NCBI RefSeq assembly: GCF_014836935.1
Contig: NZ_JACSPW010000002.1
Coordinates: forward strand, 62,001-126,000
Source of the DNA: Solibacillus merdavium
GTDB lineage: Bacteria > Bacillota > Bacilli > Bacillales_A > Planococcaceae
Reading direction: 5' to 3'
Length of the DNA: 64,000 nt
The number at the start of each line of letters is the position of its first letter. Positions within the stretch are counted from its first letter, which is position 1. A model generated the notes under the pieces. That model was given only the letters and a program-made list of their open reading frames with translations, had not been told where the DNA came from and searched no databases. Of the stretch, positions 16,609 through 17,743 are shown one piece after another. The translations under genes were made by a program, and so were the position numbers.

Positions 16609-17077
16609 TTATGAATAGTTCTGCTGCACGCCACTCCCGATGAATGTCTTCCGGCGATACACGCTAAGTGCAATCCCGATGACAAATGAGTTTAGTAGGA
16701 GAGATGTAAAACCGTAACTTACAAACGGAAGCGATAATCCGATAATCGGCAACCAGCCAAGAATCATAGCCACAGAATATCCAAACTGCATGCAATAAAA
16801 AGATACTGCTCCAATTATAAGCAATTTGCCATATGAACGGGCTAATTGTTTTGCTTTCCAAAGTATACGAATTGCGATGGCGAATAATACCGTTATGACA
16901 GCAATTCCTGCAATATAACCAAATTCCTGGATAAGCTGTACTAAAGCAAAATCTGTATGCCCTTCCGGAATATAACGAACCGTCTCTGCCCCAAACCACC
17001 CAGCTTCATTTAATGCATTTTTGATTGCCAGATAAACATAGCCTTCCTGTGTAGCATAGCTTTCTGGATTGCTGGAT
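16609..17077 (-). pseudogene. 3' remnant of an FtsW/RodA/SpoVE-family gene
   Basis: An open frame of about 155 codons encodes the C-terminal third of a SEDS-family glycan polymerase: GHTDFALVQLIQEFGYIAG, membrane segments, and the family signature LPFVSYGFTSLLLNSFVIG (usual PFVSYGGT) before a basic C-terminus. The frame begins directly after a TAA at about 17078, and no plausible start precedes the first third of the fragment. A complete member is about 380-420 residues, so roughly 60% is missing from the 5' side. Sequence loss ends close to the phased repeat array at 17093. The fragment otherwise has no internal stop, suggesting recent decay. Confidence 0.85.
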
Positions 17078-17092
17078 TAAGTACGCGGGAAA

Positions 17093-17264
17093 TTCTAATA
17101 TATTTATAAATCTTCTAATATAATTTTATTTTTTCTAATAAAATCCCGATTTTCTAATAAAGTGTCCCTTTGTGCTAAAATGCAATGACTTTTATCTAAT
17201 ATCTCCGTTGGATTTGCTAATATCCAACTGTCATCTTCTAATATCCCTCAGCATTGTTCTAATA
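17093..17264. repeat. phased array of TTCTAATA motifs, ~20.5 bp period
   Basis: TTCTAATA occurs at 17093, 17113, 17133, 17152, 17236 and 17257, with variants at about 17174 (GCTAAAA), 17194 (ATCTAATA) and 17215 (TGCTAATA). Spacing is 19-22 bases throughout, averaging 20.5, close to two helical turns. The intervening 11-14 bases differ from unit to unit, though GTTGGAT (17207-17213) and ATCCAAC (17222-17228) form an inverted pair around one motif. It has no coding potential and lies between a truncated ftsW/rodA-type gene and the DCC gene terminator. The function is unknown. Confidence 0.9.
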
Positions 17265-17304
17265 AAATGACGCGCATCGTATTATTCCATTAAATTAAGC
17301 ATAA

Positions 17305-17341
17305 AAAAAGTGCACTCTATTCATCCGAGTGCACTTTTTCA
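17305..17341 (-). terminator. intrinsic terminator after the DCC gene
   Basis: AAAAAAAGTGCACTC and GAGTGCACTTTTT form a 13-bp stem with T-runs on both sides, ending just before the DCC stop codon at 17344. Confidence 0.85.
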
Positions 17342-17343
17342 TT

Positions 17344-17733
17344 TTATAAAAATCTTTTTCGTTGCTCTGCTGATGGCAACATGCATTCCTGTTTTTTCCC
17401 GAACCATTTGTAGCGGTTTTTTGCAACGAACCGATAGACAATATCCCTCAGTGGTTTTGGCACTACAATGAAAATATAGCACAGCTTCCAGAGACCAGTT
17501 AGATTTCGTGCAATTTTAAGCGCTGCTGTCGATTCAGTATAGTGATTATCCCCTTCAATCAATACAATGCTGTCCGTTTTTTCGGAGACACCGAACTTTT
17601 TCAACATTTCCATCCCGCTATCACTTTGAAGCGAGGTAAACTTAAACAATGCTTTCGGATCACGCTTTATAATAAATTGAACACTCGCATCACAGAAGTT
17701 GCATTCTCCATCAAATAGTATAAGACGTCTCAA
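17344..17733 (-). CDS. DCC family thiol-disulfide oxidoreductase (DUF393)
   Basis: A protein of about 129 residues with the DCC signature LFDGECNFCDASVQF near the N-terminus (CxxC redox pair) and the family's C-terminal region (IVYRFVAKNRYKWFG). YuxK of B. subtilis is a relative; its physiological substrate is unknown. The frame opens with GTG at 17742, but TTG at 17733 is better spaced from the AGGTGG that overlaps the pheA stop. It follows pheA directly, so it is probably the last gene of a pheA operon, ending in a clear terminator. Confidence 0.85.
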   Translation of the reverse strand: MRRLILFDGECNFCDASVQFIIKRDPKALFKFTSLQSDSGMEMLKKFGVSEKTDSIVLIEGDNHYTESTAALKIARNLTGLWKLCYIFIVVPKPLRDIVYRFVAKNRYKWFGKKQECMLPSAEQRKRFL

Positions 17734-17743
17734 GATTTCCACC

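Follow-up and report, generated by a model that had tools for sequence, protein, structure and literature searches.

The window analysed here, a stretch of 64,000 nucleotides from a Solibacillus merdavium contig, holds a row of nine octamers in one orientation, lying between an FtsW/RodA/SpoVE-type gene fragment and the end of a gene for a DCC1-like thiol-disulfide oxidoreductase (Table 1). The initial annotation had described nine motifs, six exact and three variant, at a mean pitch of 20.5 bases, and re-reading of the octamer positions confirmed this description: successive octamers follow at pitches of 20, 20, 19, 21, 21, 21, 21 and 21 bp. The TTCTAATA-type word by itself is mildly common in the 64-kb window (9 matches vs. 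a shuffle mean of 4.5, with 4 of 100 shuffles reaching 9), and the phased cluster is the striking part. Six exact copies of TTCTAATA fall within 172 bp, compared with a maximum of two in 200 dinucleotide shuffles of the window, and the array therefore withstood the comparison with shuffled sequence that had been suggested as a check.

Table 1 Octamers of the window array and its neighbouring features (positions within the window)
Feature	Position	Strand	Remark
Left neighbour, FtsW/RodA/SpoVE-type gene fragment (PF01098)	16609..16824	-	
Nine-octamer array, whole (172 bp)	17093..17264	+	
Octamer 1, TTCTAATA	17093..17100	+	exact
Octamer 2, TTCTAATA	17113..17120	+	exact
Octamer 3, TTCTAATA	17133..17140	+	exact
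Octamer 4, TTCTAATA	17152..17159	+	exact
Octamer 5, TGCTAAAA	17173..17180	+	variant
Octamer 6, ATCTAATA	17194..17201	+	variant
Octamer 7, TGCTAATA	17215..17222	+	variant
Octamer 8, TTCTAATA	17236..17243	+	exact
Octamer 9, TTCTAATA	17257..17264	+	exact
Palindrome with flanking A and T runs	17303..17340	.	terminator-like by eye; right neighbour of the array, outside it
Right neighbour gene, DCC1-like thiol-disulfide oxidoreductase (PF04134)	17344..17742	-	gene end faces array

Many Solibacillus intergenic gaps hold a short word repeated every two helix turns, and these arrays form a real family. The pair pattern TTCTAATA-N(11-14)-TTCTAATA matches 76 times in the window's genome vs. 0 for the reversed pattern, a looser pair pattern matches 130 times vs. 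13 for its control, and the reversed control of a three-octamer pattern had no match in any of the 261 genomes searched within the order. Arrays occupy at least 27 places in the window's genome (26 in 25 fetched stretches plus the window array), 19 of which, the window array among them, carry the complete ordered nine-site pitch pattern. Across the genus, the octamer pair is present in 12 of 16 genomes, with 408 in G006, a single one in G014 and none in four genomes, and a profile search found arrays in 11 of the 16, the five without arrays being G003, G009, G010, G011, and G014. The 28 blocks listed in the window's genome lie between genes, four entries overlapping short, possibly spurious open frames, and a search of open-licence literature returned no description of these arrays among the matches listed. 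This agrees with the earlier impression of a family without a described function in the intergenic regions of relatives.

In array-rich species, a nine-octamer block is followed by a linker and a four-octamer block of 21 bp pitch, all in the same orientation. In 34 of 38 block-to-block gaps, linker length changes in increments of about 10 bp (71/72 bp in 9, 81/82 bp in 23, and 61 and 91 bp in one each); the remaining four gaps measure 48, 58, 69, and 85 bp. For the 48 Solibacillus gaps of at least 45 bp, the best clustering was found near a period of 10.5 bp (resultant 0.85, compared with 0.62 at 9.5, 0.63 at 12.3, and 0.41 at 7.3), a period test to be taken as indicative because the copies are related. 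Octamers of Solibacillus arrays are separated by 11–13 bp, corresponding to pitches of 19–21, and the pitches of 19–20 near the left end of the array fall short of two complete turns of relaxed DNA. Indels in arrays between orthologues comprise single bases and also steps near 10, 20, and 40, and the single-base changes imply a pitch that is strongly conserved without being absolute. Orthologous loci were inspected for a loss of phasing, and phasing is kept at both the window locus and a thiolase locus.

In an alignment of 77 blocks, restricted to complete nine-site patterns, several spacer positions have a consensus of their own, which indicates that the array copies are homologous in register. 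The earlier statement that spacers do not match thus holds within the window array but not across these blocks. Array copies of the same genome have a mean spacer identity of 35–41% vs. 39% expected from column composition. Copies with a spacer-centre identity of at least 79% all lie within 2.5 kb of each other, and the best distant pair reaches 75%. Three stretches of G001 (L095, L103, L108) contain local element duplicates, in tandem or 2.3 kb apart, with spacer identities of 79–95%. Both array orientations interleave on two single-contig chromosomes, with 18 forward and 24 reverse in G001 and 11 and 25 in G008. Canonical arrays are nearly absent from about 1.87–2.66 Mb in G001 (2 of 42 listed matches, one probably chance) and absent from about 1.84–2.68 Mb in G008 (0 of 36 listed matches).

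Octamers and spacers evolve at different rates. Orthologous pairs were picked by alignable flanks, which yielded an orthologue in the sister genome G005 for 20 of the 27 own-genome arrays and one in G008 for 9 of 25 G001 arrays, and divergence of octamers and spacers was counted both ways. Between the window's genome and G005, octamers diverge by 4.2%, spacer centres by 19.9%, and array flanks by 15.8%; the corresponding values for G001 and G008 are 3.3%, 31.6%, and 20.9%. In every one of the 20 and of the 9 pairs, octamers are slower than spacers, and spacer centres change at a somewhat higher rate than flanks. The divergence of 3–4% in octamers vs. 20–32% in spacer centres shows that the words are under selection, the octamers being conserved while the spacers drift. 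CRISPR repeats measure about 20–40 bp and are separated by newly acquired unique spacers, whereas the repeat of the octamer arrays is 8 bp long and its spacers keep their order and identity between species; the initial annotation was right to set CRISPR aside.

The window locus carries arrays in 8 of 16 Solibacillus genomes, and an array-less junction was recognised by eye in G011, G003, and G009. In G005, the array adjoins the start of an ECF-type sigma gene: its left neighbour there is a sigma-70-type gene (PF04542, PF08281; PF07638 ECF barely over the cut-off), followed by a PadR-like gene. An FtsW/RodA-type fragment (PF01098) occupies the left side in the window vs. the sigma gene in G005, and this border has therefore been rearranged; at 16609–17070 of the window the fragment lies at the array edge, where G005 has the sigma-factor gene. 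In the window-orthologous array region of G006 (L072), an IS256-type transposase-like gene (by eye) lies between the two blocks. The thiolase locus carries arrays in 8 of 15 genomes read, the same eight species as at the window locus, and lacks them in seven; by eye, four of these seven (G002, G011, G013, and G014) retain the same neighbour. Part of the thiolase-locus array has been lost in G005, which has also lost nearly all of another array, and the four-site block of this locus is missing in G000. The low spacer identity within genomes, the restriction of alike copies to close neighbourhoods, and the occupation of both loci in the same species indicate arrays of old age that for the most part do not move.

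Neighbours of the arrays in the window's genome are varied, and the majority of Solibacillus arrays adjoin the end of one flanking gene or of both. With orthologues counted apart, 59 Solibacillus arrays have an open frame of 60 codons on each side; the right-hand gene has its end towards the array in 47 of them and the left-hand gene in 29, with 23 arrays between convergent and 6 between divergent genes. For Ureibacillus and other genomes, gene ends at the array were counted on the right in 6 of 18 and on the left in 12 of 18, and on the right in 9 of 18 and on the left in 14 of 18. The gene-end preference is clear in Solibacillus and weak or differently sided in Ureibacillus, and there is no general orientation rule. 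Flanks of Solibacillus arrays are G-rich on the left and C-rich on the right (skew +0.45/+0.19 and −0.44/−0.33 by neighbour strand), and the spacers shift from G to C along the array. A DarT/DarG-like gene pair (by eye) precedes an array in G013 (L261, 2490–4174). Peptidase-like genes of weak similarity (24–26%) are located at most 100 bp from arrays in both genera (L037 vs. L153 and L184), probably by coincidence.

The profile search of 261 genomes of the order, counted under strict filters, returned 21 matches: the 11 Solibacillus genomes, 7 from genus g11, to which Ureibacillus belongs, and three more genomes (G111, G179, and G104). The array of G111, with the word TTGTCTAATAA, looks real; the match in G179 overlaps an open frame of 199 aa and was taken as chance. 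Another search gave 93 stretches, including 16 from Ureibacillus that were viewed and one Odoribacteraceae stretch with six matches. Arrays of U. manganicus and U. acetophenoni use TTCTAATA in 21,21,21,40 modules of 103 bp. Other g11 genomes have different words at 21-bp phasing, namely TTGGCTAATA (G260), TTGACTAATA (G279), TTGACTATTA (G276 and G025), TTTTCTATTA (G281), TTGNCTAATA (G273), and TTGTCTATTA (G270). The units behind these consensus words were selected by CTAWTA, some sets being small (7 units in G025, 10 in G111, 11 in G270), so that the CTAWTA core is present by construction and the flanking letters alone are the result. In the class-wide search of 398 genomes described next, the reversed control is high in g11 (matches vs. 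control of 238 vs. 63 in G279, 7 vs. 6 in G276, and 5 vs. 20 in G025), which we think stems from longer words containing the control letters; the claim of other words is therefore carried by the printed units and not by the counts.

Across the class, 11 of 398 genomes match (G000, G025, G276, G279, and seven others), and four of these were accepted as arrays, all in the same GTDB family. The match in G505 is, by its letters, a 10-bp tandem. In another genus of the family, G135 and G159 contain exact 21-bp tandems with CTAATA or CTATTA, which are possible seeds or unrelated repeats. The range proposed at the outset, Bacillaceae, was correct in that relatives carry arrays but has to be narrowed to Solibacillus and Ureibacillus plus a third genus in their GTDB family. 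The phased octamer arrays are dispersed intergenic repeats of putative binding sites, unusual in that the geometry is kept while the words change.

The nearest described geometry is that of LytTR-family operators, which offers a lead from geometry. These operators are 9-bp direct repeats mostly 12 bp apart, with a minority at 11 or 13, whose letters vary between species while the spacing holds, and which form pairs just upstream of promoters (PMC6193735). Octamer arrays likewise consist of short direct repeats and agree with the separation of 11–13 bp, but they comprise 4 to 9 or more sites, number in the dozens, and mostly do not lie upstream of a start. REPs are palindromes of 20–40 bp, many of them intergenic and often near convergent genes or gene ends, with reported binding of gyrase, IHF, and Pol I and a proposed role of REP/BIME repeats in insulation or chromosome organisation (PMC3733652, PMC1525189). 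Many intergenic copies near gene ends are common to both, whereas the REP unit is palindromic and the arrays are direct repeats with folding z-scores of about 0 and no pairing around octamers. The TAACTGA direct repeats of Beggiatoaceae occur in hundreds of intergenic sets of patchy distribution whose reader is not known, the heptamers standing head to tail and mostly ending just upstream of start codons (PMC4679880). The octamer arrays resemble them as intergenic sets of short directly repeated words with a patchy distribution; unlike the heptamers, their words are 12–13 bp apart, with free spacers, and mostly located elsewhere.

Several readings other than a row of protein-binding sites were weighed. 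A family of non-coding RNAs, whether structured or processed, is very improbable, and so are hairpins with the octamer in the loop: octamer 7 of the window array is flanked by a single imperfect inverted repeat of 16 nt with 75% complementarity, but the 77 aligned blocks lack covariation (best column pair z 3.5 among about 30,000 pairs) also around the octamers (flanking pairs z −2.7 to 2.2), folding z-scores of 39 of the 77 arrays are −0.18 and +0.22 on the two strands, and no Rfam family reached gathering score over the arrays. Several direct sites about two turns apart are likewise found in iterons and in transposon-end site arrays, which are part of one replicon origin or form the ends of a gene-bearing element; neither setting is seen for the octamer arrays. 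Despite this resemblance, a replication origin, iteron, or partition site, as had been considered initially, is scarcely credible with dozens of copies in one genome and orientations interleaved on both single-contig chromosomes, and we abandoned this idea. The pitch of 21 nt spans seven codons, and in translation of the reverse strand Leu-Glu recurs at seven-codon intervals, in a frame with hydrophobic residues at heptad-like places, as would suit a decayed or active coiled-coil coding sequence. However, stops in this frame show no depletion (14.3% of 224 units vs. 10.9% after column shuffling; in other sets 10.7% vs. 17.0% shuffled for 28 units and 20.9% vs. 20.0% for 86 units) and the frame is interrupted wherever the pitch is 19, 20, or 40, leaving the coding explanation a negligible probability.

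Conventional sites of a transcription regulator acting on adjacent promoters of a regulon would agree with the LytTR-like geometry and with the position of the G005 array beside the start of the ECF-type sigma gene; the varied neighbours in the window's genome and the excess of convergent over divergent flanking gene pairs render this explanation decidedly unlikely. An old non-autonomous mobile element, now mostly immobile, could have carried the octamers as transposase-binding sites, nine at one end and four at the other. Such an origin would account for the homology in register at many loci, the array-less loci of other species, the local duplicates, and the single distant pair of alike copies. 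On the other hand, spacers within a genome are about as alike as column composition predicts, and near-identical, recently dispersed copies, a trait of MITEs, were sought and found within 2.5 kb only. Orthologues in the sister genome for most own-genome arrays, the shared orientation of nine-site and four-site blocks, and selection on octamers at fixed loci, which is unexpected for dead copies, also speak against it, as does the search of plasmids and phages with one element, which gave no match; by eye, neither a target duplication nor a terminal inverted repeat was recognised at two loci. The three-word pattern matches thirteen viral contigs. We regard the mobile element as unlikely, and the initial suggestion of a mobile non-coding element retains that limited probability.

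The reading to which we incline is that the array is probably a row of sites in double-stranded DNA for one sequence-specific, cooperatively binding putative protein. The two-turn pitch, the one-turn steps of linkers, the conserved words, and the free spacers fit such a row, as do the negative results for RNA and coding signals, and the same phasing occurs with other words in related genomes. The helically phased multi-site platform of the initial annotation is thus supported by fixed pitches, linker steps of about 10 bp, and slowly evolving octamers, its binder being putative. The protein would sit about every two helical turns and recognise the octamer together with a few adjoining bases, and its cooperative binding may build a filament, or else a wrapped particle, across the nine sites; in richer species, a second patch of four sites would follow one linker away. 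By geometry alone, a direct-repeat binder of the LytTR type is a candidate reader. A gene for a shared binder was sought by comparing 195 proteins near Solibacillus arrays with 126 near Ureibacillus arrays, which gave seven weak matches (24–29% identity), by eye common enzymes with no evident DNA-binding protein among them, and none was evident by eye in the G013 loci read. This outcome counts against the reading, as do the single-base pitch changes between orthologues, the short pitches near the left end, the inconsistent gene-end preference in Ureibacillus, and the location of LytTR operators next to promoters.

The weakest step of this protein-bound row concerns its function. As the arrays lie between genes and, in Solibacillus, often beside gene ends, our guess, by analogy with REP/BIME repeats, is that the bound strip might insulate neighbouring transcription units or help to organise the chromosome. 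More tentatively, the arrays of Solibacillus, Ureibacillus, and their kin may possibly constitute a chromosome-wide lattice with a fixed two-turn geometry, a lineage-specific word, and a co-evolving putative coating protein. If true, this lattice would form a new class among the chromatin or insulator elements of bacteria, one in which the recognition code drifts while the geometry is kept. The arrays would then provide dozens of natural experiments in DNA geometry, with selected words, free spacers, and linkers changing by about one turn, and array-less sister species would serve as ready controls. The reader protein, wrapping vs. bridging, and the use of multi-site strips as insulators or folding anchors would thereby become testable.
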